Of a stretch of DNA of 64,000 nt, positions 13,283-62,928 are shown one piece after another. Origin of the DNA: Phreatobacter cathodiphilus (GTDB taxonomy: Bacteria; Pseudomonadota; Alphaproteobacteria; Rhizobiales; Phreatobacteraceae); the NCBI RefSeq assembly GCF_003008515.1, contig NZ_CP027668.1, forward strand, positions 1,480,001 to 1,544,000. Direction: 5' to 3'. The notes beneath the pieces are model-generated. The model was not told the DNA's origin. It searched no databases and worked only from the letters and a program-made list of their open reading frames with translations. Every line of letters starts with the position of its first letter. The first letter of the stretch is position 1. Both the position numbers and the translations under genes were made by a program.

Positions 13283-13543
13283 ATGACCACCAGACGCATG
13301 TTCTTCGGAACGATCGCCGGCCTCGCCGCCGTCGCAACTGCCGGCGGCCTGTCCAGCGCCGCGGAGGCCGCGCCGCTGGTTGCCGCGCCGACTGCCGCAG
13401 CCCCGGTCGAGATGCAGTCCGAGCAGACCCCGCGCGGCCGCGTCCTGCGTCGAGGCAGCCGCGGCGCCTATCGCCGCGAATGGCGCAACCGCCGCTATCG
13501 TCGCCGCTACTGGCGCCGCCGCGCCTATCGCCGCGGCTGGTAA
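13283..13543 (+). CDS. Arg-rich Tat-signal protein, family copy A
   Basis: Small exported protein of unknown function, 86 residues, one of four related genes in the window. The N-terminus MTTRRMFFGTIAGLAAV is a twin-arginine-type signal with an AEA-A-like cleavage site near residue 30. An Ala/Pro-rich spacer ends in the shared motif APVEMQ. The tail is about half arginine (18 of the last 36 residues) with Tyr and Trp, and ends RRAYRRGW. AGGAGA precedes the ATG. A terminator and tRNA-Lys follow. Such a polybasic protein could bind DNA, LPS or acidic glycans outside the cytoplasm; this is inference only. Confidence 0.82.
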   Translation: MTTRRMFFGTIAGLAAVATAGGLSSAAEAAPLVAAPTAAAPVEMQSEQTPRGRVLRRGSRGAYRREWRNRRYRRRYWRRRAYRRGW

Positions 13544-13551
13544 CAGCCCAC

Positions 13552-13585
13552 CGGGCCCGCGTCGCAAGGCGCGGGCCCGTTCTTC
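13552..13585 (+). terminator. Intrinsic terminator after Arg-rich copy A
   Basis: CGGGCCCGCG (13552-13561) pairs with CGCGGGCCCG (13570-13579) across an 8-nt loop and is followed by TTCTTCG. It begins 8 bp after the stop codon. Confidence 0.8.
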
Positions 13586-13676
13586 GTCCGGGGGCAGGGC
13601 GCCGGGAAGCTCACCGCGTCGCGATGTCGCCCGCAATTGACTTCGCGGCGGCAATCCGCCAAACCCCCCGCCGGAT

Positions 13677-13751
13677 GGGCGGGTAGCTCAGCGGTAGAGC
13701 ACGTGACTTTTAATCATGTGGTCGAGGGTTCGATCCCCTCCCCGCTCACCA
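13677..13751 (+). tRNA. tRNA-Lys (anticodon UUU)
   Basis: A 75-nt cloverleaf. The acceptor GGGCGGG pairs with CCCGCTC (one G-T pair). The D arm contains AGCTCAGCGGTAGAGC. The anticodon loop CTTTTAA gives anticodon TTT. The T arm contains GGTTCGATCCC, and CCA is encoded. Confidence 0.96.
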
Positions 13752-13764
13752 TCCGCCTCTTCCC

Positions 13765-14511
13765 TCAGAGCGAGAAGCCGCCGTCGACGATGTGGATGGC
13801 GCCGGTGGTGTAGGCGGCCTCGTCCGAGGCGAGATAGACGGCCAGCATCGCAACCTCTTCCGCCGTGCCGAGCCGGCCGATGGGCTGGCGGTCGATGAAG
13901 GCCTTGCGGGCATCAGCCTCGGACTGACCGGTGGAGGCCGCCAGCGCCTTGATGCGCTCGTCCAGGGAAGGCGATTGGATCGTTCCCGGGCAGATGGCGT
14001 TGGAGCGGATGCCGCGGCGGATGTAGTCGATGGCCACCGACTTGGTGAGGCCGATCACGGCGGCCTTGGAGGCGCCGTAGGCGTAGCGGTTGAGCACGCC
14101 GCGCACGGACGAGGCGCCGGACGCGATGTTGACGATGGAGCCCGAACCCTTCTCCAGCATGCCCGGAAGGAAGGCGCGGATCGTGCGGTGCATCGACTTG
14201 ACGTTGAGGTCGAAGGAGCGGTCCCAGTCCGCCTCGCTGGTGTCGAGGACGGTGCCGTGATGCACCCAGCCGGCGGCGTTGACGAGGATGTCGACGGGAC
14301 CGGTCTTGGCGGCCAGCGCCTCGACGGCGCGGGTCGAGGTGACGTCCAGGCGCAGCTTCTTGGCCTTGGCGATCCCCTCGAGCTTCGCCTTGTCGATGTC
14401 GGTGGCGATCACCGTCGCACCCTCGGCCACGAAGGCCATGGCGATGGCACGCCCGATCCCATGCCCTGCCGCGGTCACGACCGCGACCTTGCCCGCCAGC
14501 CTCTTCGCCAT
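13765..14511 (-). CDS. SDR family oxidoreductase, 3-hydroxybutyrate dehydrogenase type 2-like
   Basis: NAD(P)-dependent short-chain dehydrogenase of 248 residues. It has the Rossmann motif TAAGHGIGRAIA, the NAAG motif, an Asn in LNVKSM, and the catalytic Ser/Tyr/Lys set with YGASKAAV. VHHGTVLD, IRAFLPGML, AVIGLTKSVAIDYI, CPGTIQSPSLDERI and SDEAAYTTG closely match the DHRS6/BDH2 group, which also resembles 2-keto-3-deoxy-L-fuconate dehydrogenases. The exact substrate is therefore open between 3-hydroxybutyrate-like and sugar-acid compounds. It stands alone, convergent with tRNA-Lys. The start at 14511 is family-typical (MAKRLAGKVAVVTAAG). Confidence 0.88.
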   Translation of the reverse strand: MAKRLAGKVAVVTAAGHGIGRAIAMAFVAEGATVIATDIDKAKLEGIAKAKKLRLDVTSTRAVEALAAKTGPVDILVNAAGWVHHGTVLDTSEADWDRSFDLNVKSMHRTIRAFLPGMLEKGSGSIVNIASGASSVRGVLNRYAYGASKAAVIGLTKSVAIDYIRRGIRSNAICPGTIQSPSLDERIKALAASTGQSEADARKAFIDRQPIGRLGTAEEVAMLAVYLASDEAAYTTGAIHIVDGGFSL

Positions 14512-14595
14512 GTCTCTCTCCCGTCTCGGCCGTTCTCTGCGGCTCAAATCGGTTGAAGTCGTGCCATGTCGCCGACGCGCCTGTCCAGCCGCCAG

Positions 14596-15363
14596 CTATC
14601 CGCCAAACCGCTGGGAGAGTTGCGTGTCGAAGGTTTTGAGATCGCCGAGCACCCGCTCCAGCAGGGCCGGATCGCGCAGGCGAAGGGCGGAATCGATCAC
14701 GTCGATGGCGGCGCCGATCGCCTCCGCCTGGCGGCGGAACTCGCCGTTGCCGGCCGGGTCCAGCGCCGCGAAGGGCTCGCAGCGGCGCAGGGCGAAGCGA
14801 TAGACGGCGGCCTTGGCGATGATGTCGCCGCGGGTCTCGCCGCGGGTGAGGTCGGCCGGCTGGCGCCTGTGCACCATCAGCGCCTCGGCGGCCTCGCTCG
14901 ATTCGTCCAGGCATTCGACCAGGCCGTAGAGGCCGATGCTGCGCCGCAGGCCGATCCATTCGCGCTTCAGCGGAGAGAGTTCCTCGAGGGCGCTGTCCTG
15001 CCGCCCCTGGGCCAGCACCTCGGCGGCACGGCGCAGGCGCGCCCGGCCGCCTTCCATCACCTCGGCGAAGAGGCTGATCCGGCTGGTCACGGGCGGAGGG
15101 TCGGCGGTCGTCGCCGCCGCGGTCTCGTCCCAGAGGGCGATCAGCGCCTTGAGGGCGGCCTCGGCCTCCTCGGCGCGCCCGTTCCTCAGGCTCGTGGTGG
15201 CGGCGCGGTAAAGCACCTGCGCCTGGGTGAGGCCCTGGACGAGAACGGCCGTCGTGCGAGCCTCGGCGCAGGTCGCGAAGGCGGCGAGGCAGAGCGCGAC
15301 CAGGGCGGCCAGCAGGCGGGAGCGGTTACATGTCGTCACGAACCGCACCTTACCCCAAGTCAT
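14596..15363 (-). CDS. Exported alpha-helical protein of unknown function
   Basis: Not recognised. The 255-residue protein has a hydrophobic signal (LLAALVALCLAAFATCAEA, about residues 17-35) and a mature part made almost wholly of predicted helices, with repeated Ala/Glu/Leu patterns such as NGRAEEAEAALKAL that resemble TPR-type packing. Two cysteines (in VECLDE and RRCEPF) could form a disulfide. The ATG at 15363 overlaps the stop of the upstream sugar-kinase gene as ATGA, so translation is coupled; a GTG start inside the signal region is the alternative. It is last in the recG-ybaN-pfkB operon. Confidence 0.72.
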   Translation of the reverse strand: MTWGKVRFVTTCNRSRLLAALVALCLAAFATCAEARTTAVLVQGLTQAQVLYRAATTSLRNGRAEEAEAALKALIALWDETAAATTADPPPVTSRISLFAEVMEGGRARLRRAAEVLAQGRQDSALEELSPLKREWIGLRRSIGLYGLVECLDESSEAAEALMVHRRQPADLTRGETRGDIIAKAAVYRFALRRCEPFAALDPAGNGEFRRQAEAIGAAIDVIDSALRLRDPALLERVLGDLKTFDTQLSQRFGG

Positions 15364-16268
15364 CGGCGTCCCGCCAGCAGCCGATCCACGCTCGCCCGGT
15401 CTGGCATGCCCTTGCGACCGCCGAAGGCGGTGCACTTGAGGGCCGCCGCCGCATTGGCAAAGCGGACGGCCCGGTCGAGCGGCTGTCGTTCGGCGAGGGC
15501 GACGGCCAGCGCCCCGTGCCAGGTATCGCCGGCGCCCAGCGTATCCACCGCGGTCACGTCGAAGGCCGGAACGTGGCGCACGAGACGGCCCTCCATATAC
15601 CAGGCGCCGCGCGCGCCATCCGTGACGAGGAACACGTTGGCGGCGCTTTCGGATGCATGGGCGAGGGCGGTGGCGAGGTCGTCGATGCCGGTCAGGTCGC
15701 GCAGCGCCGGCGCCGAAAAGCCGACATGGCTCGCCAGGGCCAGAACCTCCGGACGGTCCGGGCGGCGGTCGGCGTCCAGCACGGAGGGAAGGCCCGCGTC
15801 CCGCGCCAGCGGCAGCAGGGTGAGCGCCGCCTCGATCCAGCGCGTCTCGGCATAGGCGGCATGCGCCCCGGCGAGGGCGCCTTCGTCGATCCAGCCGGCA
15901 TCGGAGGGAATGTCGGGGTCGGCATAGCTCACCACCAGCCGCTCGCCATGGCGGTCGATGACGACGGCCGAGACCGGCGAACGATGGCCGGGGCAGCGCT
16001 GCACCCGCGAGCAGTCGACGCCGTCGCGCTCCAGCTCCTCGATCATCATGGCGGCGAAGGCATCGTCGCCGAGGCGCGCGATCAGGGACACCGAGGCGCC
16101 GAGCCGGGCGCAGGCGGTGGCGGCGTTGCCGGCGAGCCCTCCGCCCGACGTCACCATTCGCGTCGAGCGGAACTTGAGCGGCACCGTCGGAATCTCGTCC
16201 AGGCCGTAAATGATGTCGAGCGTGGTAATGCCGGCGCAGACGATGCGCCGTCGCGGATCCGCGGTCAT
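15360..16268 (-). CDS. PfkB family carbohydrate kinase
   Basis: ATP-dependent sugar or nucleoside kinase of the ribokinase family, 302 residues; the substrate is not resolved. Signature 1 appears as GGGLAGNAATACARLGA (about residues 41-57). Signature 2 is DTLGAGDTWHGAL, with the catalytic Asp in GAGD. A-F-G-G-R-K-G-M near the C-terminus corresponds to the adenine and cation region. The start ATG overlaps the stop of the DUF454 gene by 4 bp, and its own stop overlaps the next start the same way. It is carried in an operon with recG, with which it has no known functional link. Confidence 0.88.
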   Translation of the reverse strand: MTADPRRRIVCAGITTLDIIYGLDEIPTVPLKFRSTRMVTSGGGLAGNAATACARLGASVSLIARLGDDAFAAMMIEELERDGVDCSRVQRCPGHRSPVSAVVIDRHGERLVVSYADPDIPSDAGWIDEGALAGAHAAYAETRWIEAALTLLPLARDAGLPSVLDADRRPDRPEVLALASHVGFSAPALRDLTGIDDLATALAHASESAANVFLVTDGARGAWYMEGRLVRHVPAFDVTAVDTLGAGDTWHGALAVALAERQPLDRAVRFANAAAALKCTAFGGRKGMPDRASVDRLLAGRR

Positions 16269-16630
16269 GACGAGGGCCGCGTCCCGACATAAAGGGCGCC
16301 GGCGGCGATGCAGAGGCCCGAGACCGCGATACCGACGGGCGGGGCGGTGAGCCAGACGAGACCCCAGGACAGAGCCATGGAGCCGAGCGCGATCGCCTTG
16401 ATGCGGGGCGCGATGGCGCCGCGCTCGCGCCAGGTCCTCACCGGCGGGCCGAGGCGGGGATGGTTCAGAAGCCACCATTCGAAGCGCGGCGAGGAGCGGG
16501 CGAAGCACCAGGCGGCGAGGATGAGGAACACCGTGCCCGGCAGGCCGGGGAGGATGACGCCGATCACGCCGATGACCGTGAACAGGCATCCCGCGAGGAA
16601 GACCAGCAGGCGGAGGGGACGGGCGAGCAT
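16265..16630 (-). CDS. YbaN/DUF454 inner-membrane protein
   Basis: Small inner-membrane protein of 121 residues with three to four hydrophobic helices. It has the DUF454 core: FLAGCLFTVIGVIGVILPGLPGTVFLILAAWCFARSSPRFEWWLLNHP. In this run the PGLPGTVFL turn and the W-L-L-N-H-P motif are the diagnostic features. Function is unknown; E. coli YbaN is called a conserved inner-membrane protein. It begins 2 bp after the recG stop and overlaps the downstream kinase by ATGA, so it is in the same transcript. Confidence 0.88.
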   Translation of the reverse strand: MLARPLRLLVFLAGCLFTVIGVIGVILPGLPGTVFLILAAWCFARSSPRFEWWLLNHPRLGPPVRTWRERGAIAPRIKAIALGSMALSWGLVWLTAPPVGIAVSGLCIAAGALYVGTRPSS

Positions 16631-16632
16631 GG

Positions 16633-18747
16633 TCAGCCGGCCTTGATGAGGCGGATCGCCTCGTTGCGACCGAACAGATAGAGCAGATCGCGCAGCGCCG
16701 CGCCACGGGCCGAGGCGAGCTGCGGATCCGTCTCGATGATGAGCCTGGCGTCGCTGCGCGCCGTCTCCATCAGCGGCGCGTGGTGCTCGAGCCGGGCGAG
16801 GCGGAAGCCCGGCATGCCCGACTGCTTGGTGCCGAGGAGATCGCCTTCGCCGCGCAGCGTCAGATCCTCCTCGGCGATACGGAACCCGTCCTCGGTCTCG
16901 CGCATGATGTCGAGGCGGCGGCGCGCCGTCTCGCGCAGCGGCCCCTTGTAGAGCAGGATGCAGGTGGAGGCTGCGGCGCCGCGGCCGATGCGCCCGCGCA
17001 GCTGATGAAGCTGGGCAAGACCGAAATGTTCGGCGTGGTCGATCACCATGATCGAGGCCTCCGGCACGTCGACGCCCACCTCGATGACCGTGGTGGCGAC
17101 GAGGAGGCGCGTCTCGCCGGCCGAGAAACGCACCATGGCGGCATCCTTGTCGGTGCCCTTCATCTGGCCGTGGACCATGTCCACCGCCGCGCCGAACCGC
17201 TGCTGGAGCAGGGCGAAGCGCTCCTCCGCGGCGGCGAGGTCCGGCGTGTTCTCGTCCGGCTCCTCCGCCTCGGCGACCAGCGGGCAGACCCAGTAGACCT
17301 GCCGTCCCGCCTCCAGCGCCCGGCCGATGCCGTCGACCACGTCTCCGAGCCGCTCCATGGCGATGACGCGGGTGTCGACCGGCTTGCGGCCGGCCGGCTT
17401 CTCGCGGAGCTGCGAGGATTCCATGTCGCCGAAATAGGTCAGAACCAGCGTGCGCGGGATCGGCGTCGCGGTCATCACCAGGAGGTCGACGGCCTCGCCC
17501 TTGGCCGCCAGCGCCAGGCGCTGCTGCACGCCGAAGCGGTGCTGTTCATCGATGACGGCGAGGCCGAGATCGTGGAAGCGCACATGCTCCTGGAACAGCG
17601 CGTGGGTGCCCACGACGATGGCGATGGCGCCCGAGGCGAGGCCGGCGAGGATGTCCTCGCGCTCGCGGCCCTTCTCCCGGCCGGTGAGGATCGCCACCCT
17701 GAGACCCGCGGCGGCGGCGAGCGGGGTCAGCGTCTTGGCGTGCTGGCGTGCCAGCAGTTCGGTCGGCGCCATCAGGGCGGATTGCCGGCCGGCCTCCGCG
17801 GCGGCGGCCATGGCCATGAGCGCCACCACCGTCTTGCCGGAGCCGACGTCGCCCTGGAGGAGGCGCAGCATGCGGGTCGGCGCACTCATGTCGGCGGCGA
17901 TCTCGGCGATGGCCGCCGTCTGCGAGCCGGTGAGGGCGAAGGGCAGGGCGCCGGCGATGCGCTCCCGCAGCGACCCGTCGCCGACATTGCGGCGTCCCGC
18001 CGGCCGCTTCAGGTTGGCGCGGACGAGGCCGAGGGCGAGCTGGTTGGCGAGCAGTTCGTCATAGGCGAGCCGCGAGCGGGCGGGGCCATCGGGCGCGAAA
18101 TCCTCGGGGCTTTCGGGCTGGTGCATGCGTTTGAGCGCCGCGGCGAAGTCTGGCCAGCCCTCGCGCGCCAGGTGCCGCGGCTCCAGCCATTCCGGCAGGA
18201 CCGGCAGGCGGGCGAGAGCGGCCTCGGCGGCGCGCCGCACATGGCCGGAGCCGAGCCCCTCCGTCAGCGGATAGACCGGCTCCATCATCGGCATGGTCGC
18301 CGCCTGCTCCGGCGCCAGCACCCGATCGGGATGCACCATCTGGCGCATGCCGTCGAAGAGCTCGATGCGGCCGGAGACGATCCGCGTCTCGCCGACGGGG
18401 CACATCTGCTCGATGCGGCTGCGATGGGCGTTGAACCAGACGAGCGTCAGGTCGCCCGTCTCGTCCGAGACGAGAACCTTGTAAGGGGCCCGCGACTTGC
18501 CCGGCGGCGCCGGCCGGTGCCGTTCGACCAGCACGGCGAGGGTGACGATGGCGCCCGGCACGGCCTCGGCGAGCGTCGGCCGCGACCGCCGGTCGATCAG
18601 CCCGCTCGGCAGGTGGAAGAGGAGATCGACCACGCGCGGCGGCCCCTCGCTGGCGAGCAGCTTCGCATAGAGGCCTTCGAGTTTGGCGCCGACGCCCTTC
18701 AGGGTGGTCAGCCGCGCAAACAGGGGATCGAGTCGCGTGGGACGCAT
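16633..18747 (-). CDS. recG: ATP-dependent DNA helicase RecG
   Basis: Superfamily 2 helicase that reverses stalled replication forks and processes branched DNA. The 704-residue protein has the N-terminal wedge/OB region (about 30-170) and then the helicase core. Walker A is LLQGDVGSGKTVVALMA near residue 290, the DEQH-box motif is VIDEQHRFGVQQR, motif III is MTATPIPRTL, and QLHQLRGRIGRG is motif VI. GMPGFRLARLEHHAPL is in the C-terminal TRG-type region. The length is typical. It is the first gene of a four-gene minus-strand unit and is divergent from sdhE-mfd, as often seen in this group. Confidence 0.97.
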   Translation of the reverse strand: MRPTRLDPLFARLTTLKGVGAKLEGLYAKLLASEGPPRVVDLLFHLPSGLIDRRSRPTLAEAVPGAIVTLAVLVERHRPAPPGKSRAPYKVLVSDETGDLTLVWFNAHRSRIEQMCPVGETRIVSGRIELFDGMRQMVHPDRVLAPEQAATMPMMEPVYPLTEGLGSGHVRRAAEAALARLPVLPEWLEPRHLAREGWPDFAAALKRMHQPESPEDFAPDGPARSRLAYDELLANQLALGLVRANLKRPAGRRNVGDGSLRERIAGALPFALTGSQTAAIAEIAADMSAPTRMLRLLQGDVGSGKTVVALMAMAAAAEAGRQSALMAPTELLARQHAKTLTPLAAAAGLRVAILTGREKGREREDILAGLASGAIAIVVGTHALFQEHVRFHDLGLAVIDEQHRFGVQQRLALAAKGEAVDLLVMTATPIPRTLVLTYFGDMESSQLREKPAGRKPVDTRVIAMERLGDVVDGIGRALEAGRQVYWVCPLVAEAEEPDENTPDLAAAEERFALLQQRFGAAVDMVHGQMKGTDKDAAMVRFSAGETRLLVATTVIEVGVDVPEASIMVIDHAEHFGLAQLHQLRGRIGRGAAASTCILLYKGPLRETARRRLDIMRETEDGFRIAEEDLTLRGEGDLLGTKQSGMPGFRLARLEHHAPLMETARSDARLIIETDPQLASARGAALRDLLYLFGRNEAIRLIKAG

Positions 18748-18801
18748 CGCGGCAATCTAGTCCGTGGCGTCCGCTGCCGACAGGCCCGCGGGCCGCGCGG
18801 C

Positions 18802-18830
18802 TTGTAAATCCCTCTCCGGCTTTGCTAGGG
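18802..18830 (+). promoter_or_regulatory. Candidate promoter for sdhE-mfd
   Basis: TTGTAA (18802-18807), a 17-bp spacer and CTAGGG (18825-18830) lie about 130 bp upstream of sdhE. The -10 is of the CTA type common in this group. No operator-like repeat is evident in the rest of the 211-bp recG-sdhE intergenic region. Confidence 0.35.
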
Positions 18831-18958
18831 GTGCACCGCACCGGGTTTCGTCCGAAAGGGCCTGCCCGGCTTTTGCCGTTAGCTGCCCTGCATTCGCGCC
18901 GGCTCCGGAAACGGGCCTCGCGCGTAGATGCCGTGCAACACGCAACGAGGCCCTGTCG

Positions 18959-19258
18959 ATGACCGGAACCACCCGTTCCTCCGCCGATCTCGATCCGCGC
19001 CGCCGGAAGATCCTCTTCCGCTCCTGGCATCGCGGCACGCGCGAGATGGACCTGATCATGGGCCGGTTCGCCGACGTGCATATCGGCGACTTCAGCGAGG
19101 CGGAGCTCGACGATTTCGAGCGCCTGATCGAGGTGCCGGACCGCGACCTCTTCGCCTGGGTCACCGACAAGGCCGATACGCCGGCCAATTACGACACCTC
19201 GGTCTTCCGCTCGCTCAAGACCTTCCACGCCGAGGGCCGCGGGGCCTGGGTCGGCTGA
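18959..19258 (+). CDS. sdhE: Succinate dehydrogenase assembly factor 2 (SdhE/DUF339)
   Basis: Helps insert FAD covalently into the flavoprotein of succinate dehydrogenase. The 99-residue protein has RRRKILFRSWHRGTREMDLI, in which the R-S-x-x-R-G-x-x-E-x-D segment contains the family RGxxE motif, followed by LDDFERLIEVPDRDLFAWV. The ATG at 18959 gives the family length; the long upstream extension has no such support. Its stop and the mfd start overlap as TGATG, so the two are co-translated. This sdhE-mfd linkage recurs in alphaproteobacteria although the functions are unrelated. Confidence 0.93.
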   Translation: MTGTTRSSADLDPRRRKILFRSWHRGTREMDLIMGRFADVHIGDFSEAELDDFERLIEVPDRDLFAWVTDKADTPANYDTSVFRSLKTFHAEGRGAWVG

Positions 19259-22200
19259 TGGCGAAACGTTCTCCCGCCGACGTCGTCGCCTCGCGCGGGC
19301 GGTTGACCCTCGCGGGCGTGCCGCAGGGCTACGACGCTCTCGTCGTCGCCGACCTCGCCCGCCAGCTCCATGCCAAGGGCGACCAGGCCTCGCCCGAGCT
19401 GCTTGTGATCTGCCGCGACGGCCCGCGCATGCAGGCCATGGAGACGGCGCTGGCCTTCTTCGCGCCGGGCATCGAAATCCTCACCGTCCCCGCCTGGGAC
19501 TGCCAGCCCTATGACCGCGCTTCCCCCAACGGCGCCGTCATGGCGCGGCGGATGCTGACCCTGTCGCGCCTCGCCCGCACCACCGGCCGCGCGACCCCGG
19601 CCATCGTGCTGACCACGGTCAACGCCGCGCTGCAGCGGGTGCCCGCGCGCGCGGTCCTCGCGCAGCAATCGCTGTCCGCGGCGCCGGGCAACGTCATCGC
19701 CATGACCGACCTGCAGTCCTGGCTGGAGACCAACGGCTACCTGCGCACCTCGACCGTGCGCGAGGTCGGCGAATATGCCGTGCGCGGCGGCATTCTCGAC
19801 CTCTTCGCGCCGGGCCTCGACGCGCCCATCCGCCTCGACTTCTTCGGCGACACGCTGGAGTCAATCCGCTCCTTCGACCCGGAGACCCAGCGCACCACCG
19901 GCAATCTGCGCCGCCTCGACCTCGTGCCGACGGCGGAAATGCAGATCACCACCGAGACCATGTCGAAGTTCCGGCTCGCCTATGTGCGGGCCTTCGGCGG
20001 CTCGACCAAGGGCGACGCGCTCTACGAGGCGGTCTCCGAGGGGCGCCGCCACCCCGGCGTGGAACACTGGCTGCCGCTGTTCCACGACCGTCTCGACACG
20101 CTCTTCGACTATTTGCCCGATGCCGGCATGGTCCTCGACGCCCAGGTGGAGGAAGCGGCGCGCGAGCGTCTGACCACGATCGCCGACTACTACGATGCGC
20201 GGAAGACGGCGCTCGAGCAGGACGCCTCCGCCTCCTACAAGCCGCTGCCGCCGGACGCGCTCTATCTGTCGCCCGCGGACTGGGACCGCCGGAGCGGCGG
20301 CGAGGCCGTCGTGAAGCTCTCGCCCTTCGCGCTCGCCGGCGCCTCCGACGGCGCCTTGATCGACCTCGGGGGCCGGCGCGGCCGGTCCTTCGCGGCGGAG
20401 CGGGCCGACGAGAACGCCAATGTCTTCGACGCCGTGACGGCCCATGTGGCGGCGCTGCGCAAGGACAAGAAGCGCGTCCTGGTCGCCGCCTGGTCGGAGG
20501 GGTCGCGGGAACGGCTCCAGCCGATCCTCGAGGACCACGGGCTGAAGGCGCTGCGACCGGTGGCGAGCTGGTCCTCCGCCCAGGCCCTGCGCGGCGACGA
20601 GATCGCGCTGGCCGTGCTCGGCGTCGAGGAGGGCTTCGAGACACCCGACTTTGCCGTCGTCGGCGAACAGGACATTCTCGGCGACCGTCTCGTCCGTGCC
20701 CAGAAGCGGCGGAAGAGGGCGCAGGACTTCCTCTCCGACGTCACGAGCCTGTCGGCCGGCGATCTCGTCGTCCATGTCGACCACGGCATCGGCCGCTTCG
20801 TCGGCCTGAAGACGGTCACTGCGGCGGGCGCGCCGCACGACTGCGTCGAGCTGCACTATGCCGGCGGCGACAAGCTCTTCCTGCCGGTGGAGAACATCGA
20901 GCTCCTCACGCGCTACGGCTCGGAGGACGCGGAGGCCCAGCTCGACAAGCTCGGCGGCGGCGCCTGGCAGGCCCGCAAGGCCCGCCTCAAGAAGCGCATC
21001 CTCGAAATGGCCGCCGGTCTCATCAAGATCGCCGCGGCCCGTGCCCTGCGCGAGGCGCCGAAGCTGGTGGCGCCCGACGGCGCCTATGACGAGTTCGCCG
21101 CCCGTTTCCCCTATGACGAGACGGACGATCAGGCCGGCGCCATCGATTCCGTGCTGGAGGACATGGGTTCCGGGCGGCCGATGGACCGGCTCGTCTGCGG
21201 CGACGTCGGCTTCGGCAAGACCGAGGTGGCGCTGCGCGCCGCCTTCGCCGCCGTCATGAGCGGCAAGCAGGTGGCGGTGGTGGTGCCGACGACGCTTCTC
21301 GCCCGGCAGCACTACAAAACCTTTGCCGAGCGCTTCAAGGGGCTCCCGGTGACGGTCGCCCAGGCTTCCCGCATGGTCGGCTCCGCCGATCTCGCCGCCG
21401 CCAAGAAGGGCCTGGCGGACGGGACGGTCGACATCGTCGTCGGCACCCACGCCCTGCTCGGCAAGACCATTTCCTTCAAGGATCTCGGCCTCGTCATCGT
21501 CGACGAGGAGCAGCATTTCGGCGTCGGCCACAAGGAGCGGCTCAAGGAGCTGCGCGCCGAGGTCCATGTGCTGACCCTGACCGCGACGCCGATCCCGCGG
21601 ACGCTCCAGCTCGCCATGACCGGCGTGCGCGACCTGTCCATCATCGCGACGCCGCCGGTCGACCGCCTCGCGGTCCGCTCCTTCGTGACGCCCTTCGACC
21701 CGCTGATCATCCGCGAGGCCCTGCTGCGCGAACGCTACCGCGGCGGCCAGGCCTTCTTCGTCTGCCCGCGCATCGAGGATCTGGCGGAGGCCGAGGCCTT
21801 CCTGCGCGAGCACGTGCCGGAGGCGAAGTTCATCGTCGCCCACGGGCAGATGGCGGCCGGCGACCTCGAGGACCGCATCGGCGCCTTCTACGACGGCAAG
21901 GTCGACATCCTGCTCTCCACCACCATCGTCGAATCCGGCCTCGACATCCCGCGCGCCAACACGCTGATCGTCTGGCGCGCCGACATGTTCGGCCTCGCCC
22001 AGCTCTACCAGCTGCGCGGCCGCGTCGGCCGGGCCAAGACCCGCGCCTATGCGCTCTTCACGCTGCCTGAGAAGAAGCCGGTGACGCCGCAGGCCGAGCG
22101 AAGGCTGAAGGTTCTCCAGTCTCTCGACACGCTCGGCGCGGGCTTCCAGCTCGCCTCCCACGACCTCGACATCCGCGGTGCCGGCAACCTCCTCGGCGAC

Positions 22201-28982: not shown

Positions 28983-29219
28983 TCACCAGTAGAAGCGGCG
29001 GCGATAGAAGCGGCGGCGGATGAAATAGACCCGGCGCGGGCGATAGTAGTAGCGAACGCGGCGGCGGCGGATGATGTAGTACTGCATCTCCGTCGGCTGG
29101 GCGGCGGCGACGGGAGCCGCGGCGGTGGCGGCAGCAGGCGCGGCCTGGGCGGCACCGCCGGCGGCGGCGACCGCAACGGCTCCGGCGGCCGCTGCGAAGA
29201 AGGTACGACGATGGATCAT
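28983..29219 (-). CDS. Arg/Tyr-rich Tat-signal protein, family copy B
   Basis: Second member of the small exported family, 78 residues. MIHRRTFFAAAAGAVAVAAAG is the twin-arginine-type signal, a likely AQA-A cleavage site lies near residue 26, and PTEMQ closes the Ala-rich spacer. The tail is Arg plus aromatic: 14 Arg and 10 Tyr/Phe/Trp in the last 28 residues, ending RRRFYW. ATG 29219 is chosen over TTG 29225 because AGGAGG lies 7 nt upstream. Copy C lies 157 bp upstream on the same strand, so these two are a tandem pair. Function unknown. Confidence 0.82.
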   Translation of the reverse strand: MIHRRTFFAAAAGAVAVAAAGGAAQAAPAAATAAAPVAAAQPTEMQYYIIRRRRVRYYYRPRRVYFIRRRFYRRRFYW

Positions 29220-29376: not shown

Positions 29377-29628
29377 TCAGCTCCGGCGGCGGGCGCGGCG
29401 GACGACGCGGCGGGTCCGGCGACGGCTGCGACGCACCACGCGGCGGACGCGGCGGCGCGCATGGCGGCGCATCTCGAGGGGCTCGGCGGCGACGGGGGTC
29501 GCGACGGTCTCGGTGGCGAGGCCCTCCGCCGCGACGGCGAGCGGGGCGGCCTGCGCGGCGGCGGCGGCGAGGGCGGTGGCGGCGACGCCGGCGCCGAGGG
29601 CGGTGAAGAACGAGCGACGATGGATCAT
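29377..29628 (-). CDS. Arg-rich Tat-signal protein, family copy C
   Basis: Third member of the family, 83 residues. The signal MIHRRSFFTALGAGVAAT is nearly the same as in copy B. The spacer is longer (AVAAEGLATETVATPVAAEP) and ends LEMR in place of EMQ. The tail is almost all arginine and valine (19 Arg in the last 30 residues), giving a protamine-like composition with none of the aromatics of copy B. ATG 29628 has AAGGAG 8 nt upstream. It probably has its own promoter, and its leader contains a perfect 7-bp inverted repeat. Confidence 0.82.
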   Translation of the reverse strand: MIHRRSFFTALGAGVAATALAAAAAQAAPLAVAAEGLATETVATPVAAEPLEMRRHARRRVRRVVRRSRRRTRRVVRRARRRS

Positions 29629-29689: not shown

Positions 29690-29859
29690 TGATGCATCCT
29701 CGCCCCTTGATGCTGAACCGCCGATATCGCGCGATTTAGCCGGCGTTCAGATTGGCCGCCGGCCGAATCCGCGTCACATTTCGGCGGGTACGGCGCCATC
29801 CCGGTGAAACGCGGCCCGGCCAGCCTCGCACCGTCAGCACAGTCCTTCGGGAGACCACC

Positions 29860-54432: not shown

Positions 54433-54513
54433 CAGCGGCCTGCGGGCGCGCTCCGCCGCCCGCGCCGTGCCCATCGCATCCGCCGTACCTGACCTCCTGA
54501 CCGGAATCCGTCC

Positions 54514-55923: not shown

Positions 55924-55950
55924 GAGAGGCCGTGGCCCACCCACTCAGCA

Positions 55951-56060
55951 GTCACCCCCCGGCGAGCCCGCAGGGCGAGGGAAGGGGGTCCAGGAGGGCA
56001 GGGGCTGTGGTCTTCGGCCCCTGGATTCCCTTCCCCTCGCTGCGCTCGGCCGGGGATGAC
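55951..56060. repeat. REP-like imperfect palindromic element
   Basis: A 110-bp GC-rich element begins GTCACCCCCCGGCGAG and ends CTCGGCCGGGGATGAC. Its two arms also share GCGAGGG-AAGGG-TCCAGG and CCTGGA-CCCTT-CCCTCGC, so the whole folds into one long imperfect hairpin. It lies between pdhB and the DUF5076 gene. Such mobile palindromes are common in Rhizobiales intergenic regions. I see no second copy in the window. Confidence 0.65.
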
Positions 56061-56095
56061 GCAGGAGTCTTTGCTCGTGGTGGGGGCCGGCTGAC

Positions 56096-56389: not shown

Positions 56390-56412
56390 CGGCCCCGTCC
56401 GGAGCACCGACC

Positions 56413-57789
56413 ATGCCCATCGACATCCTGATGCCCGCGCTGTCCCCGACCATGGAGAAGGGGAACCTCGCGAAGTGGCTGAAGAAGGAAGGCGACACCA
56501 TCAAGGCCGGCGACGTCATTGCCGAGATCGAGACCGACAAGGCGACCATGGAGGTCGAGGCGGTGGACGAGGGCATCCTCGCGAAGATCGTCGTCGCAGA
56601 GGGCTCGCAGGACGTGCCGGTGAACCAGCTCATCGCGGTGATCGCCGCCGAGGGCGAGGACGTGAAGGCCGCCGCGTCAGGGGCAGGGGCCAAGCCTGCG
56701 GCTGCACCGAAGCCGGAAACGGCGAAGGCTGCCGAGCCGAAGGCGGCGACGGGCGGCGAGATCGGCAACGCGGCGCCCGCAAAGGCTGAGGACAAGCCGC
56801 AGGCCGTGCCCGCCGCTCCCGCCAGCATCGCCCAGGCGGCCTCCGGCATCCGGCTCTTCGCCTCGCCGCTGGCCAAGCGCATCGCCAAGCTCGAGGGCAT
56901 CGACCTGTCCAAGGTCGCAGGCACCGGTCCGCACGGCCGCATCGTCGAGCGCGACGTCAAGGCCGCCGCTGCGGGTGGAACGGCCAAGGCGGCGCCGGCT
57001 CCCACCGCCGCACCTGCGGCTGCCGCCCCCAAGCCGGCGCCCGTCTCCGGACCCTCCGACGAGCAGATCAAGAAGCTCTTCGAGCCGGGCTCCTACGAGG
57101 AGATCCCCCACGACAACATGCGTAAGGTCATCGCCCGCCGCCTGACGGAAGCGAAGACCACCATTCCGCACTTCTACCTGACCATCGACTGCGAGCTCGA
57201 CGCCCTCTTGTCGCTGCGCGAGCAGATCAACAAGGCGGCGCCCGTCCGCGACGGCAAGCCGGCCTACAAGCTCTCGGTCAACGACCTCGTCATCAAGGCG
57301 CTGGCCCTGTCGCTGCGCGCCGTGCCGGACGCCAACGTCACCTGGACCGACGGCGCCATGCTGAAGCACCAGCACGCCGACATCGGCGTCGCCGTGTCGA
57401 TCCCCGGCGGCCTCATCACGCCGGTGATCCGCGACGCCTGCCACAAGCCGGTCTCGGTCATTTCCAATGAGATGAAGGACCTGGCGGCCCGTGCCCGCAA
57501 CCGCAAGCTGAAGCCCGAGGAGTACCAGGGCGGCTCTTCGGCGGTCTCCAACCTCGGCATGTTCGGCATCAAGGACTTCGCCGCCGTCATCAACCCGCCG
57601 CACGCGACGATCCTCGCCGTCGGCGCCGGCGAAAAGCGCGTCGTCGTGAAGAACGATCAGCCGGCGGTGGCGACCGTCATGAGCGTGACGCTTTCCACCG
57701 ACCACCGCGCGGTGGACGGGGCGCTCGGCGCCGAGCTGATGGCCGCCTTCAAGGGCTATATCGAGAACCCGATCGGCATGCTGGTCTGA
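56413..57789 (+). CDS. pdhC: Dihydrolipoamide acetyltransferase, E2 of pyruvate dehydrogenase
   Basis: Core of the complex: accepts the acetyl group on its lipoyl arm and passes it to CoA. The 458 residues have one lipoyl domain (about 1-80, [16 protein letters not shown]), an Ala/Pro/Lys linker, the peripheral-subunit-binding domain at about 140-180 (ASPLAKRIAKLEGIDLSKV then TGPHGRIVERDV), and the catalytic domain from about 225, with the active-site motif STDHRAVDGALGAEL. The symbol pdhC follows alphaproteobacterial usage; the E. coli name is aceF. Confidence 0.97.
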   Translation: MPIDILMPALSPTMEKGNLAKWLKKEGDTIKAGDVIAEIETDKATMEVEAVDEGILAKIVVAEGSQDVPVNQLIAVIAAEGEDVKAAASGAGAKPAAAPKPETAKAAEPKAATGGEIGNAAPAKAEDKPQAVPAAPASIAQAASGIRLFASPLAKRIAKLEGIDLSKVAGTGPHGRIVERDVKAAAAGGTAKAAPAPTAAPAAAAPKPAPVSGPSDEQIKKLFEPGSYEEIPHDNMRKVIARRLTEAKTTIPHFYLTIDCELDALLSLREQINKAAPVRDGKPAYKLSVNDLVIKALALSLRAVPDANVTWTDGAMLKHQHADIGVAVSIPGGLITPVIRDACHKPVSVISNEMKDLAARARNRKLKPEEYQGGSSAVSNLGMFGIKDFAAVINPPHATILAVGAGEKRVVVKNDQPAVATVMSVTLSTDHRAVDGALGAELMAAFKGYIENPIGMLV

Positions 57790-57801
57790 GGAGGAGGCGC
57801 G

Positions 57802-58287
57802 ATGAACGCCACGTCGCGCCTCACCTACCTGTCCCTCGCGGTGGCGACGCTCGCCATGGTGTCCTCCTTCTTCCAGAGCTACAATTACTCGCGCAACCTC
57901 GAGGTCGTGCAGCGCAACGTCATCCGCGGCGAATATCTGCGCACCTGCCGCGACATCATCGACGCCTATTTCCAGATCAAGATGCGCACCTACGCCATGC
58001 ACGAGGCAGCGGGCGCCGCCGGCGCGGAGCCGGCCGCACCGCTCGCCCAGCGTGAGGTGGAGGCGAGCGTCTTCAGGTTCGGCGCGCTCGGCACATTCCT
58101 CGCCAACTTCCGCGACGACGCCGTCCGCGAGCGCTACACGCAGCTCTCCTGGAAGCTGCTGGCGATCGCCCGGGAGACCTTCAAGCAGCCGCGCGAGGCC
58201 TTCGACAAGGCCTATGGCGAGGCGGACACCCTGTTCGGAGAGATGAACGAGGACTGCGCCCGCACGGCGCGCCTGTCGTTCCTGTAA
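57802..58287 (+). CDS. Membrane-anchored protein of unknown function in the pdh operon
   Basis: Not recognised. The 161 residues have one N-terminal hydrophobic helix (LTYLSLAVATLAMVSSFFQS, about 7-26) followed by a soluble helical domain with several conserved-looking aromatic and Arg/Glu residues, and two Cys at 49 and about 152. AGGAGG lies just upstream of ATG 57802, so translation should be good. It sits 12 bp after pdhC and 24 bp before lpdA, inside the operon, which suggests that it is co-expressed with the enzyme complex. It might tether or sense something at the membrane; that is speculation. Confidence 0.75.
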   Translation: MNATSRLTYLSLAVATLAMVSSFFQSYNYSRNLEVVQRNVIRGEYLRTCRDIIDAYFQIKMRTYAMHEAAGAAGAEPAAPLAQREVEASVFRFGALGTFLANFRDDAVRERYTQLSWKLLAIARETFKQPREAFDKAYGEADTLFGEMNEDCARTARLSFL

Positions 58288-58311
58288 CGCCACCCACGAA
58301 AGGCCTCACCC

Positions 58312-59751
58312 ATGTCCAGCTACGACATCATCGTCATCGGCGGCGGCCCCGGCGGCTATGTCGCGGCCATCCGCGCCGCCCAGCTCGGTTTCAAGACCGC
58401 GGTGGTGGAGCGCGAGCATCTCGGCGGCATCTGTCTCAACTGGGGCTGCATCCCGACCAAGGCGCTGCTGCGCTCGGCCGAGATCTATCACTACGCGACC
58501 CACGCCAAGGACTACGGGCTGACGCTGAACGGCACGATGAGCGTCGACATGGGCGCCGTGGTGAAGCGCTCGCGCGGCGTCTCGGCCCAGCTCAACGGCG
58601 GCATCGGCTTCCTGATGAAGAAGAACAAGATCGACGTCATCTGGGGCGAGGCGAAGATCGCCAAGGTCGGGCAGTTGGTGGTCACCGCGTCGTCGAAGCC
58701 CGCGGTGCAGCCGCAGGTACCCCCGCCGAAGGGCACGCTGGGGGCAGGGACCTATCAGGCGAAGCACATCATCGTCGCCACCGGCGCCCGGCCGCGGGTG
58801 CTGCCGGGCATCGAGCCCGACGGCAAGCTGATCTGGACCTATTTCGAGGCGATGAAGCCGGAGGCCATGCCGAAGAGCCTCATCGTCATGGGGTCCGGCG
58901 CCATCGGCATCGAGTTCGCCTCCTTCTACCGCACCATGGGCGCCGACGTGACCGTGGTCGAGGTGCTGCCGCAGGTCATGCCGGTGGAGGATGCCGAGAT
59001 CTCGGCCCATGCCCGCAAGCGCTTCGAGAAGCAGGGCATGACGATCCTCACCTCCACCAAGGTGACCAAGGTCGAGAAGGGCGCCAATTCCGTCACGGCG
59101 ACCGTCGAGGACGAGAAGGGCGCCAAGCGCACCATCACCGCCGAGCGGATGATCTCCGCCGTCGGCGTCGTCGGCAATGTCGAGGGCCTCGGCCTCGAGG
59201 CGCTCGGCGTCACCATGGACCGCGGCACGGTGAAGACAGACGGGCTCGGCCGCACCAACATTGCCGGCATCTACGCCATCGGCGACGTGGCGGGACCGCC
59301 GATGCTCGCCCACAAGGCCGAGCACGAGGGCGTCATCTGCGTCGAGACCATCAAGGGCCTGCACACCCACGCCCTGGACAAGGCGATGATCCCCGGCTGC
59401 ACCTATTGCCACCCGCAGGTCGCCTCCGTCGGCCTCACCGAGGCCAAGGCGAAGGAAGCCGGCTACACGGTGAAGGTCGGTCGCTTCCCCTTCATGGGCA
59501 ACGGCAAGGCCATCGCGCTCGGCGAGCCTGAGGGCCTCGTCAAGACCATCTTCGATTCGAAGACCGGCAAGCTCCTCGGCGCCCACATGGTCGGGGCGGA
59601 AGTGACCGAGCTCATCCAGGGATTCGTCGTCGCCATGAACTGCGAGACGACGGAGGAGGAATTGATCCACACCGTCTTCCCGCACCCGACCCTCTCGGAA
59701 ATGATGCACGAGAGCGTCCTCGACGCCTATGGCCGGGTCGTCCACACCTGA
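58312..59751 (+). CDS. lpdA: Dihydrolipoyl dehydrogenase, E3
   Basis: FAD enzyme that reoxidises the lipoyl groups of E2 and passes electrons to NAD. The 479 residues have the FAD motif DIIVIGGGPGGYVAAIRAAQ, the redox disulfide GGICLNWGCIPTKALL, the NAD motif VMGSGAIGIEFASFYRTMG, the second FAD motif IYAIGDVAGPPMLAHKAEHE and the C-terminal catalytic His-Glu in FPHPTLSEMMHES. All are intact. Last gene of the pdh cluster; two hairpins, the second an intrinsic terminator, follow. Confidence 0.98.
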   Translation: MSSYDIIVIGGGPGGYVAAIRAAQLGFKTAVVEREHLGGICLNWGCIPTKALLRSAEIYHYATHAKDYGLTLNGTMSVDMGAVVKRSRGVSAQLNGGIGFLMKKNKIDVIWGEAKIAKVGQLVVTASSKPAVQPQVPPPKGTLGAGTYQAKHIIVATGARPRVLPGIEPDGKLIWTYFEAMKPEAMPKSLIVMGSGAIGIEFASFYRTMGADVTVVEVLPQVMPVEDAEISAHARKRFEKQGMTILTSTKVTKVEKGANSVTATVEDEKGAKRTITAERMISAVGVVGNVEGLGLEALGVTMDRGTVKTDGLGRTNIAGIYAIGDVAGPPMLAHKAEHEGVICVETIKGLHTHALDKAMIPGCTYCHPQVASVGLTEAKAKEAGYTVKVGRFPFMGNGKAIALGEPEGLVKTIFDSKTGKLLGAHMVGAEVTELIQGFVVAMNCETTEEELIHTVFPHPTLSEMMHESVLDAYGRVVHT

Positions 59752-59759
59752 TCACGAAA

Positions 59760-59801
59760 GGTGATAGGATGATTGTCCGCAAGGATGATCGTCCTATCAC
59801 C
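59760..59801 (+). other. 19-bp hairpin directly after lpdA
   Basis: GGTGATAGGA (59760-59769) pairs with TCCTATCACC (59792-59801). The interior continues pairing, with a few G-T pairs, to a GCAA tetraloop (59779-59782), about 19 pairs in all. No U-tract follows. It starts 8 bp after the lpdA stop and may protect the 3' end of the pdh mRNA. Confidence 0.6.
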
Positions 59802-59824
59802 CTTGCTGATGATTCCGCGTTCAG

Positions 59825-59876
59825 GGCGGCCGGCGGGGACAACCCCGGGCCGCCACGGGACCACCGTGATTTTTTT
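59825..59876 (+). terminator. Intrinsic terminator of the pdh operon
   Basis: GGCGGCC (59825-59831) pairs with GGCCGCC (59848-59854) around an inner GGGG-ACAA-CCCC. A second small stem CACGG/CCGTG leads into seven T residues (59870-59876). Confidence 0.75.
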
Positions 59877-60113
59877 GAACGGGCCGAAGCCGCATGATCG
59901 CTGGCTCCGCGGCGGTCGCCGCCGTCCCGCGGCACGGCTTTGAGCACGGTCCTTGTCCCCGAAAGTCCGGCGAGCCCTATCCTCCAGCGGTTCTGGAAGG
60001 AGAGGTCACCATGGCCGGACTCATCGTCGCGATCGTTGTTTCGGTGCTGGCGCTCGCAGCTCCGCCGGCAGCCGCCGTCCTGCCGGGCGAGGCCGGCATC
60101 GCCACGGCCCGCG
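59877..60113. other. Intergenic stretch without a supported gene
   Basis: A short plus-strand reading from ATG 60011 has a GGAGAGG upstream and a signal-peptide-like start (MAGLIVAIVVSVLALAAPP). It runs straight through the terminator of the convergent gene and into that gene antisense, so I do not call it. No repeat, RNA or promoter pattern stands out otherwise. Confidence 0.5.
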
Positions 60114-60145
60114 CCAACGAAAAAGGCCGGCGCGAGGCCGGCCTT
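60114..60145 (-). terminator. Intrinsic terminator after the L,D-transpeptidase gene
   Basis: On the minus strand AAGGCCGGC pairs with GCCGGCCTT (9 bp, 5-nt loop) and is followed by TTTCGTT directly after the stem, making five T residues in all. Confidence 0.88.
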
Positions 60146-60172
60146 CGGTTCGACGGATGGCGCGTTGCGGCG

Positions 60173-60844
60173 TCAGCTGGTGACGCTCTCGCCCGACGGC
60201 AACACGATGGCGGTCGCGCCCACCGGCACGCGGCCGTAGAGGTCGATGATGTCCTGGTTGAGGAACCGGATGCAGCCGGAGGACACCTGCGTGCCGATCG
60301 TCCAGGGCTCGGTGGTGCCGTGCAGGCGATAGAGGGTGTCGCGGTTGCCGCGGTAGAGGTAGAGCGCGCGGGGACCGAGCGGGTTCTCCGGGCCGCCGGG
60401 AAGGCCGCCGGCGACGGGTCCGTAGCGGTCCGGCTCGCGGCGGATCATGTCCTGGGTCGGAGTCCAGCGCGGCCAGACCGCCTTGCGGCCGATGGAGGCG
60501 ATGCCGGTGAGATTGAAACCCTCCTCCTTGCCGACGCCGACGCCGTAGCGCATGGCCCGGCCGTTCTCCATGACGAGATAGGCGTAGCGGGAGGTGGGAT
60601 CGACGACGATCGTGCCGGGATTTTCACGGCCGCGATAGGGCACCTCGCGGCGCCAGAAGCGCTGGTCGACCTGGCTGAGGTCGATGGCCGGCACGGGGTG
60701 GGGCTCACCCTGCACCTCGCCGTACATGGCAACGTAATAGGGATCGAAACGGGGCGTCTCGATCGCCAGTTCCTCGCGTCGGGTGGTGCAGGCACCGAGA
60801 ATGAACGGGGCGCCCAGAACAAGGAAACGTCGATCGATCGTCAT
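60173..60844 (-). CDS. L,D-transpeptidase lipoprotein (YkuD family)
   Basis: Cross-links peptidoglycan 3-3 or attaches proteins to it, outside the inner membrane. The 223-residue protein starts MTIDRRFLVLGAPFILGACTT: a Tat-like RRFL with a lipobox LGAC, so Cys19 should be lipidated. The YkuD domain (about 75-220) has IVVDPTSRYAYLV, YRLHGTTEPWTIG with the His, and the nucleophile motif SSGCIRFLNQDIIDLY. ATG 60844 has GAGG 6 nt upstream; ATG 60847, one codon earlier, is too close to it. It faces a strong terminator at its 3' end. Confidence 0.93.
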   Translation of the reverse strand: MTIDRRFLVLGAPFILGACTTRREELAIETPRFDPYYVAMYGEVQGEPHPVPAIDLSQVDQRFWRREVPYRGRENPGTIVVDPTSRYAYLVMENGRAMRYGVGVGKEEGFNLTGIASIGRKAVWPRWTPTQDMIRREPDRYGPVAGGLPGGPENPLGPRALYLYRGNRDTLYRLHGTTEPWTIGTQVSSGCIRFLNQDIIDLYGRVPVGATAIVLPSGESVTS

Positions 60845-61113
60845 CATAAGCCTCAGAACCTGACGCCGCGAACAAGGTTCCCCGCCCCGCGAGGGATTTG
60901 TCGGTCGCTGCGTCTACGTGAACAGGGGGCGGCTCGTAACACCGGCGGTGGGCGTCAAACATGACGAAACCGTGAGGCCCGGCGAAACGCGGCGTTACTG
61001 TTGCCGCACTGCACCACCCGGACCTCTGCGGCACCCACGCCTCACGCCACCTGCGCGGGAACGATGGCCGGAAAACGGTTAATTCCTGGCAATCGCCGCG
61101 TGCCGAACCGCGA

Positions 61114-62457
61114 TCACAAACTCGCGAACAGGTCGTAGTCGCCGGCCCGGTCGATCTTCACCGTGACCAGCTCTCCGACGGCGAGCTTGCGCCTCGTGTG
61201 GATGAAGACCGACCCGTCGATCTCCGGCGCGTCTCCCTTCGAGCGGGCCCTGACCACGGTGGGGCCCACCTCGTCGACCAGCACCTGCTGGCGCGTGCCG
61301 ACCTTGCGCTTCAGCCGGCGGGCGGAAATCTCCGCCTGCTTCTTCATGAAGCGGTGCCAGCGCCGCTCCATCACCTCGGGCGGCACCTGGCCCTCCAGCG
61401 CGTTGGACGTGGCGCCCGCCACCGGCTCGTACTTGAAGCAGCCGACCCGGTCGAGGCCGACCTCGTCCAGCCAGTCGAGCAGGAATTCGAACTCCTTCTC
61501 GGTCTCGCCGGGAAAGCCGACGATGAAGGTGGAGCGAATGGTGAGGTCCGGGCAGATCTCCCGCCAGCGCCGGATCCGCTCGACCGTCTTCTCCTGGTGC
61601 GCCGGGCGCTTCATGCGGCGCAGCACGTCGGGATGGGCGTGCTGGAAGGGGATGTCGATGTAGGGGAGGATCTTGCCCTCGGCCATCAGCGGGATGACCT
61701 CGTCGACATGCGGATAGGGGTAGACGTATTGCATCCGCACCCAGACGCCGAGTTCGCCGAGCGCCTGGGCGAGATCGAGGAACTTCGTCCGCCAGCTGCG
61801 GTCGCGCCACTGGCTCTCGGCATACTTCACGTCGATTCCGTAGGCCGACGTGTCCTGGCTGACGACGAGGAGCTCCTTCACCCCCGCTGCGACCAGCTTC
61901 TCCGCCTCGCGCATCACCTCGCCGAGGGGGCGCGAGACGAGGTCGCCGCGCAGCTTGGGGATGATGCAGAAGGTGCAGCGGTTGTTGCAGCCCTCGGAAA
62001 TCTTGAGATAGGCATAGTGGCGCGGCGTCAGCTTGATGCCCTGCGGCGGCACCAGGTCGAGGAAGGGATCGTGCTTCGGCGGCGCCGCCTCGTGCACTGC
62101 GGCCAGCACGCTCTCGTATTGCTGCGGACCGGTGATGGCGAGCACGGAGGGGTGGGCGGCCCGGATCTGGTCCGGCTCGGCGCCCATGCAGCCGGTGACG
62201 ATGACGCGGCCGTTCTCCTTCAGCGCGTCGCCGATGGCCGCCAGGCTCTCGGCCTTGGCCGAATCGAGGAAGCCGCAGGTGTTGACGAGCACGAGGTCGG
62301 CGCCCTGGTGGCTGCGCGACAGCTCGTAGCCCTCGGCGCGCAGGCGCGTGATGATCCGCTCGGAATCGACCAGCGCCTTCGGGCAGCCGAGCGAGACGAA
62401 GGAAATCTTCGGCGCGGCGCGGTCGGTCGGCGGGGGCAGGGTGGCGGTGTCGGTCAT
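61114..62457 (-). CDS. rimO: Ribosomal protein S12 methylthiotransferase RimO
   Basis: Radical-SAM enzyme that methylthiolates the conserved Asp of ribosomal protein S12. The 447 residues have the N-terminal UPF0004 domain with its three Cys ([28 protein letters not shown]), the radical-SAM motif [18 protein letters not shown] and the C-terminal TRAM domain (about 375-445). The motif order and S-L-G-C-P-K start separate it from the related MiaB. It is followed by a 266-bp gap and the L,D-transpeptidase gene, and is divergent from Arg-rich copy D. Confidence 0.97.
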
Positions 62458-62583
62458 CGGAGCTCGTCACGGGGGGCAGGGCCCGCCAATAGGCGAAACC
62501 GCGGGGCGGGACAAGCCAGACCGGGCGCGGGAGCCGGTCCGTCGACGGCAGGTGAAGCGAATGAACCAAATGCCAGCCGGCCG

Positions 62584-62598
62584 GTTCATCGATCGTTC
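62584..62598 (+). promoter_or_regulatory. LexA-type box upstream of Arg-rich copy D
   Basis: GTTC-ATCGATC-GTTC is a perfect match to the alphaproteobacterial SOS consensus GTTC-N7-GTTC, 48 bp before the start of the Arg-rich protein gene. The first GTTC is also one arm of ATGAACC (62561-62567) / GGTTCAT (62583-62589). About one such match is expected by chance in 64 kb of this composition, so the location is the main support. Confidence 0.5.
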
Positions 62599-62646
62599 AA
62601 CTGGGCCGGGGCACTGTCCTCCCAGTGAAGTCCAAGGAGGTTACAC

Positions 62647-62928
62647 ATGGATCGTCGCTCGTTCTTCCTCACGCTCGCAGGCGGCGCCGTCGCTGCCGGC
62701 GCGCTCGGTGCGACCGCCGCTTCGGCGGCTCCCGCCGCTCCGGCCGCCGCGGCACCCGCTGCCGGCGCGCCGCTGGAAATGCAGTGGGGCTACGGCTACG
62801 GCCCGCGCCGCCGCTACTACCGTCCCTATCGCCCCTACCGTCCCTACGGCTTCTACGGCCCGCGCCCCTTCCGTCCGGTGCGCCGCTGCTGGATCAACCG
62901 CTGGGGCGAGCGCGTCTGCCGCTTCTGA
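62647..62928 (+). CDS. Arg/Tyr/Pro-rich Tat-signal protein, family copy D
   Basis: Fourth member of the small exported family, 93 residues. MDRRSFFLTLAGGAVAAGAL is a twin-arginine-type signal, with cleavage likely near residue 28 (ASA-A). The Ala/Pro spacer ends in GAPLEMQWGYG. The tail differs from the others: YRPYRPYRPYGFYG repeats, then a short basic end with two Cys (in RRCWINRWGERVCRF) that could form a disulfide. AAGGAGG lies 6 nt before the ATG. Repeats of this kind are sometimes auto-annotated as sulfur-globule-like; I do not endorse that. A possible LexA box lies upstream. Confidence 0.82.
   Translation: MDRRSFFLTLAGGAVAAGALGATAASAAPAAPAAAAPAAGAPLEMQWGYGYGPRRRYYRPYRPYRPYGFYGPRPFRPVRRCWINRWGERVCRF

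Follow-up and report, generated by a model that had tools for sequence, protein, structure and literature searches.

Within the window, i.e. the stretch of 64,000 nucleotides of Phreatobacter cathodiphilus DNA that was analysed as a whole, lie four small genes whose products combine a putative twin-arginine signal with a short EM[QR] box and a basic tail. Gene A (13283..13543, plus strand) encodes 86 aa with an RR-M-FF signal, an APVEMQ box and an Arg/Trp/Tyr tail; gene B (28983..29219, minus strand) encodes 78 aa with an RR-T-FF signal, a QPTEMQYY box and an Arg/Tyr/Phe tail that has YW at its end; gene C (29377..29628, minus strand) encodes 83 aa with an RR-S-FF signal, an EPLEMR box and an Arg/Val tail without aromatic residues; and gene D (62647..62928, plus strand) encodes 93 aa with an RR-S-FF signal, an APLEMQW box and Tyr-Arg-Pro repeats. 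The four reading frames and their motifs are present where the first-pass annotation had placed them, and the ribosome-binding sites that it had called good do have a good Shine-Dalgarno sequence in all four cases; no strand had been given, and B and C are found on the minus strand, head to tail. GC-rich hairpins occur in the sequence downstream of the four genes. Because A is followed by a tRNA-Lys gene and D by a tRNA-Ser gene, both are considered to be single-gene units.

The proposal that the four proteins form one family, with a conserved signal and EM motif and divergent basic tails, is borne out by leave-one-out profiles and by comparison within the genus. Each member was left out in turn, and an HMM covering the N-terminal part up to and including EM[QR] was made from all the others and scored against 759 six-frame ORFs of the window; it recovered the omitted member as the next best ORF in every case (E = 3.3e-7 for A, 9.8e-10 for B, 4.1e-7 for C and 3.9e-11 for D), with a clear gap to the best non-member (E = 0.029). 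Profile searches showed that the complete source genome (4.49 Mb, one contig) holds eight members instead of four, the additional ones being E (about 2292190 of contig C1), F (about 2289879), G (about 2287984) and H (about 1034088). G, F and E constitute a three-member cluster (G000:C1:2287984-2292459, L111), and the Arg-Gly-Phe repeats in F and G recall eukaryotic RGG boxes. Homologues are not restricted to the source genome: profile searches yielded 6-8 matches per genome in 12 out of 12 genomes of the genus (counting matches with E below about 1e-6 plus the confirmed ORFs G003 C28 and G008 5787980). Syntenic sets, defined on the basis of flanking DNA, indicate that the subfamilies hold largely fixed genomic places; syntenic orthologues of A were found, and the B/C place is occupied in all 12 genomes; in G003, G007 and G008 it has grown to three or four copies. 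A single-sequence search of GTDB contigs returned only one Phreatobacter orthologue, and an orthologue of D is carried by a MAG that is named Phreatobacter.

The expectation of a lineage-wide multi-copy family thus holds throughout the genus, but in its strict form it does not extend across the Hyphomicrobiales. When 398 genomes of the order were searched with the profile, the genus accounted for the strongest matches, and outside it at least 28 of 386 genomes contained looser and weaker matches (E <= 1e-4, best 4.6e-12). A class-wide search added two matching genomes outside the order, with about 12 candidates scored per genome, so that absence is weak evidence there; the same holds for the genome searches in general, which the low-complexity sequences make approximate. 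Several weak order-level matches (L048-L050, L052, L053 and L056) proved, on reading, to be unrelated or alike in composition alone. Among the matches outside the genus that were read, some have signals other than the RR type. No curated Pfam or NCBIfam family covers A to D, searches of Pfam, NCBIfam and the PDB gave nothing useful above cut-off, tblastn of one looser relative against plasmids gave no match, and a DNA pattern for RR-x-F was by itself uninformative.

The purifying selection that the family reading called for is evident in both halves of the proteins, the pooled pN/pS of 21 orthologue pairs being 0.072/0.302 in the N-terminal part and 0.050/0.276 in the tails, which corresponds to dN/dS values of about 0.19 and about 0.15 that are approximate for sequences of such low complexity. 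Spurious Arg-rich ORFs are frequent in high-GC genomes, and one might therefore suspect that the reading of A to D arose by chance from GC-rich DNA; the probability of such an artefact is close to nil, considering the conserved starts, the synteny across the genus, a dN/dS of about 0.18 and the abundance of Tyr and Trp codons in the tails. Judged by sequence comparison, A to D are members of a real, genus-wide family of small proteins.

The RR pair is invariant in the alignments (A1, A2 and A4), an AxA site is present, an Ala/Pro spacer precedes the EM[QR] box, and the sequences agree with a Tat signal as described by RR-x-[FL]-[FL] followed by a mildly hydrophobic stretch and an AxA site; a TatC gene is present in the genome. 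The Tat-signal model PF10518 (Pfam TAT_signal) scored C at 17.3 bits (E = 0.0044), below its cut-off of 22.7, and A, B and D gave no such match; TIGR01409 was passed by two looser relatives. Altogether Tat export of the family members is likely. The EM[QR] box is exact in 66 of the 67 collected genus members, with EMH in the remaining one, and in 58 of the 67 a proline occupies the second position before the glutamate. The looser Hyphomicrobiales relatives (e.g. L129, L131, L135 and L136, which pass at most TIGR01409, TAT_signal_seq) resemble the family in their RR signal, AxA site, spacer and Arg/His/Trp/Tyr tail, sometimes with a Cys pair, but differ in that EM[QR] is replaced by a less well-defined box (for instance E-Q-V-[QH]-W, PEQVHW, SEPTQYY or SEPTQYYYY), in that there are 1-3 matches per genome, and in that the tails are often His-rich. 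Since the relatives outside the genus carry such variant boxes, EM[QR] seems to be the form that a looser box takes in this genus.

The tails also share a property beyond what had been reported in the first-pass annotation, namely the absolute exclusion of lysine. The 67 tails contain 1109 Arg and 0 Lys, where Lys accounts for 28% of Lys+Arg in the 33 window ORFs with coding-like composition; against this background of 0.28 the chance of finding no Lys at all has a naive log10 P of about -161, orthologues not being independent observations. The whole proteins contain 6 Lys in total, of which 4 fall within the first 28 residues. The mean tail is 41% Arg and 21% aromatic with less than 1% acidic residues, and Trp is the final residue in 35 tails; two subfamilies have Gly-rich tails. 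The Lys-free rule favours a role that requires guanidinium chemistry, e.g. bidentate binding of anions or arginine-aromatic contacts. Around 40% of the tails contain C-x(8-9)-C (e.g. CWINRWGERVC), and the C-terminal Cys hairpin of D (RRCWINRWGERVCRF) is invariant in six orthologues. In the AlphaFold model of D this segment, a beta hairpin (strands 80-83 and 89-92, block pLDDT 89 and 78), and the signal helix are the sole parts modelled with some confidence, and the model of B is of low confidence. Where alignments are shallow, low model confidence does not demonstrate disorder, and disorder of the tails is presumed. The same C-terminal Cys motif (RRRCWVNRYGERVCRYRR) occurs in a Gly-zipper lipoprotein (G000:C1:235616; L007, L158), which has an EcfG-type site upstream at 235243; the Cys tail has the look of a mobile module.

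The way in which the tails vary bears on another idea put forward earlier, i.e. that the set is fitted to several acidic partners, which is taken here as one per tail type. Across the genus the different tail types persist at fixed genomic places, and the aromatic-free C-type tails are neighboured by the aromatic-rich B; within one place, however, the order and length of the tail drift while its composition stays basic (C moves from Arg/Val to Arg/His), which is easier to reconcile with generic binding than with specific partners and makes this idea rather improbable. Because the tails keep their composition and not their order, the several paralogues are likely to be dose-adding variants.

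Upstream of the genes, aligned regions revealed conserved elements common to paralogues, and sites of the EcfG type precede several subfamilies. The general-stress motif of EcfG is GGAAC-N17-20-GTT (PMC6599016), and on the sense strand of the family upstream regions GGAAC..GTT occurs 14 times at N17, 3 times at N18 and once at all other spacings from 8 to 30; N17 also stands out in all the genus DNA that was fetched (56 occurrences, other spacings mostly 3-21). We relied on this spacing histogram because the reversed-pattern control for genome-wide sites is not composition-matched. The stricter GGAAC-N16-17-CGTT was found before 9 of the 66 members, compared with a mean of 0.10 in shuffled sequences and a single case on the reverse strand. 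Canonical sites are found at E and G in the source genome, at D in G003 and G008, at A in G010 and at F-, G- or E-type members elsewhere. In the source genome A and D have TGAAC variants at the same spacing and H has one with one base less: the site of A (TGAACAAATACCGCCGACATGCGTT, TGAAC-N16-CGTT; 13188..13212, plus strand) aligns with a canonical GGAAC-N16-CGTT at the same place in the G010 orthologue, and for that of D (TGAACCAAATGCCAGCCGGCCGGTT, TGAAC-N16-GGTT; 62562..62586, plus strand) a canonical GGAAC-N16-CGTT is found in G003 and G008, whose orthologues have it at another distance to the start codon. The palindromic nature of the TGAAC..GTTC dyad means that it may function as an operator and not as a promoter. 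No EcfG-like sites were found upstream of B and C. NepR is encoded in the source genome, with a canonical EcfG site upstream of its gene, and several subfamilies appear to be switched on by the EcfG general stress response. Relative to the first-pass annotation, what is new is thus the exclusion of Lys from the tails together with these putative EcfG-type promoter sites of fixed spacing.

A further element is the direct repeat GTTCA-N6-GTTCA that is found upstream of D (GTTCATCGATCGTTCA; 62584..62599, plus strand) and also of H. It occurs at 10 sites genome-wide, against 0 for the reversed pattern, and further sites precede metK, folE and two other exported proteins. The latter, L147 (G000:C1:1150507) and L151 (G000:C1:2365351), have Tyr/Arg- or Pro/Tyr-rich tails, and L147 has a GGAAC-N16-CGTT site in addition to the repeat. 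Read on the opposite strand, the repeat at D and H fits TGA-N8-TGA, the motif of the envelope regulator CenR, and there it overlaps the putative -10; when CenR activates, its motif is co-directional and located before the -35 (PMC9275681). It likewise fits a LexA-type GTTC-N7-GTTC box, and recA of the source genome has GAAC-N7-GAAC, but none of the genome-wide sites that were readable precedes a repair gene and the LexA reading, which may still hold, was not adopted. ChvI was rejected as a reader, its reported motifs being TTGC-N3-GCAA and GCC-N8-GCC. Upstream of C lies TGAAC-N26-GTTCA (29714..29749, minus strand) with an inner TAAA..CGATAT, in a block (TAAA..CGATAT..GGTTCAG) that is conserved in ten genomes, and a TTGACG sequence is common to the upstream regions of B and E.

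The reading that we favour, at a probability of roughly 0.4, is that the family consists of polycations, for the most part disordered, which are induced by stress, exported by Tat and bind to anionic polymers of the envelope. Its members are probably stress-induced proteins that form a positively charged coat on the cell envelope or act as its chaperones, since several of them appear to be under general stress control; export, localisation, induction and function are in this respect what we infer from the genomic data. Upon activation of EcfG the preproteins would be made (D and H probably being subject to a second regulator), exported by Tat and relieved of their signal, after which the mostly disordered polycation would bind anionic material in the periplasm or in the outer envelope, with the phosphates and carboxylates of LPS or exopolymers, anionic lipids and partly unfolded acidic proteins as candidate ligands. 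Binding would proceed via arginine-anion and arginine-aromatic contacts and serve to coat and cross-link the material; the Cys hairpin would be oxidised and cap the tail, and the EM[QR] box, lying between spacer and tail, probably serves as a short motif for docking or processing. A reading as structural proteins of wall, capsule or biofilm matrix, whose tails would glue acidic exopolymers outside the cell, takes up the earlier suggestion of structural wall proteins; it overlaps with the favoured explanation and differs from it mainly in the place of action. The strong positive charge, the Tyr-Arg-Pro and Gly-Phe-Arg repeats and the several paralogues of differing length are in keeping with it, but the proteins lack a surface anchor or further secretion signal and the stress-type promoter sites argue for condition-dependent use, and we hold it to be unlikely.

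The position of the EM[QR] box at the border of leader and tail also invites the thought that the leader is removed through the box to release a cationic peptide directed against microbial competitors, as the composition of the tails resembles that of Arg/Trp-rich antimicrobial peptides. Against such a role speaks that genes for immunity, a protease or a transporter were not recognised in the neighbourhood of the members, which are single genes (A and D beside tRNA genes) with 6-8 matches per genome at largely fixed places, and that selection on the tails is purifying and not diversifying; we regard it as decidedly unlikely. A more specific form of the envelope reading, in which Lys-free Arg/Tyr/Trp and Arg-Gly-Phe polypeptides fill the periplasm during the stress response as a condensate or coat, with EM[QR] as recruiting motif, is quite speculative and rather a long shot; if true, the arginine-aromatic 'sticker' proteins of eukaryotic condensates would have a counterpart outside the cytoplasm.

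Among described systems the enterobacterial Asr (NCBIfam NF033636) works in a manner that may be similar: like the family, whose features in this respect are predicted, it is small, basic, exported, mostly disordered and stress-induced, and both have an Ala-rich region after the signal. Asr contains lysine and is exported via Sec, whereas the family is Lys-free with a Tat-type signal and has no sequence relation to it. The NF033636 cut-off was missed (17.1 versus 50 bits, E = 0.007, with the Ala spacer of A alone), and the likeness is one of manner of working, not of membership. Asr acts in the periplasm as an intrinsically disordered chaperone and supports the integrity of the outer membrane (PMC10746267). 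With the EcfG/PhyR/NepR regulon of Alphaproteobacteria, many members of which are small secreted or hypothetical proteins, the family has the GGAAC-N17-18-GTT site in common (PMC6599016); we found no described member of that regulon with the architecture of the family, the regulation of which is predicted, and 1 of 11 looser relatives checked has a strict EcfG site. Protamines likewise have Arg in place of Lys and contain aromatic residues and Cys, but the family is predicted to be exported and a role with DNA is not indicated; the Protamine_P2 match is weak, below cut-off (E = 0.006) and limited to one looser relative outside the genus.

Small exported proteins of low complexity are usually left 'hypothetical', and the comparison made here provides a testable frame for them, which consists of a multi-copy lineage family, a probable general-stress regulon, a fixed motif and the rule that Arg is used and Lys never. 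This rule raises the question of what it is outside the cytoplasm that favours guanidinium over amine with such strictness; the answer bears on the protection of the envelope during stress and on the way in which the Tat system could let unfolded basic proteins through. The box and the Cys pair also occur with another type of signal, namely in an exported protein with a non-Tat signal that is present in two genomes of the genus, including the source (L113, reverse-complement 5396-6097, minus strand; L070): it combines a P-x-EMQ box (QPVEMQRRGGGFRGG, with QPVEMQRRGGG) and a C-terminal Cys pair (ECWIERRWVDTPWGPEVRRVRVCD) with a hydrophobic Gly/Ala segment.
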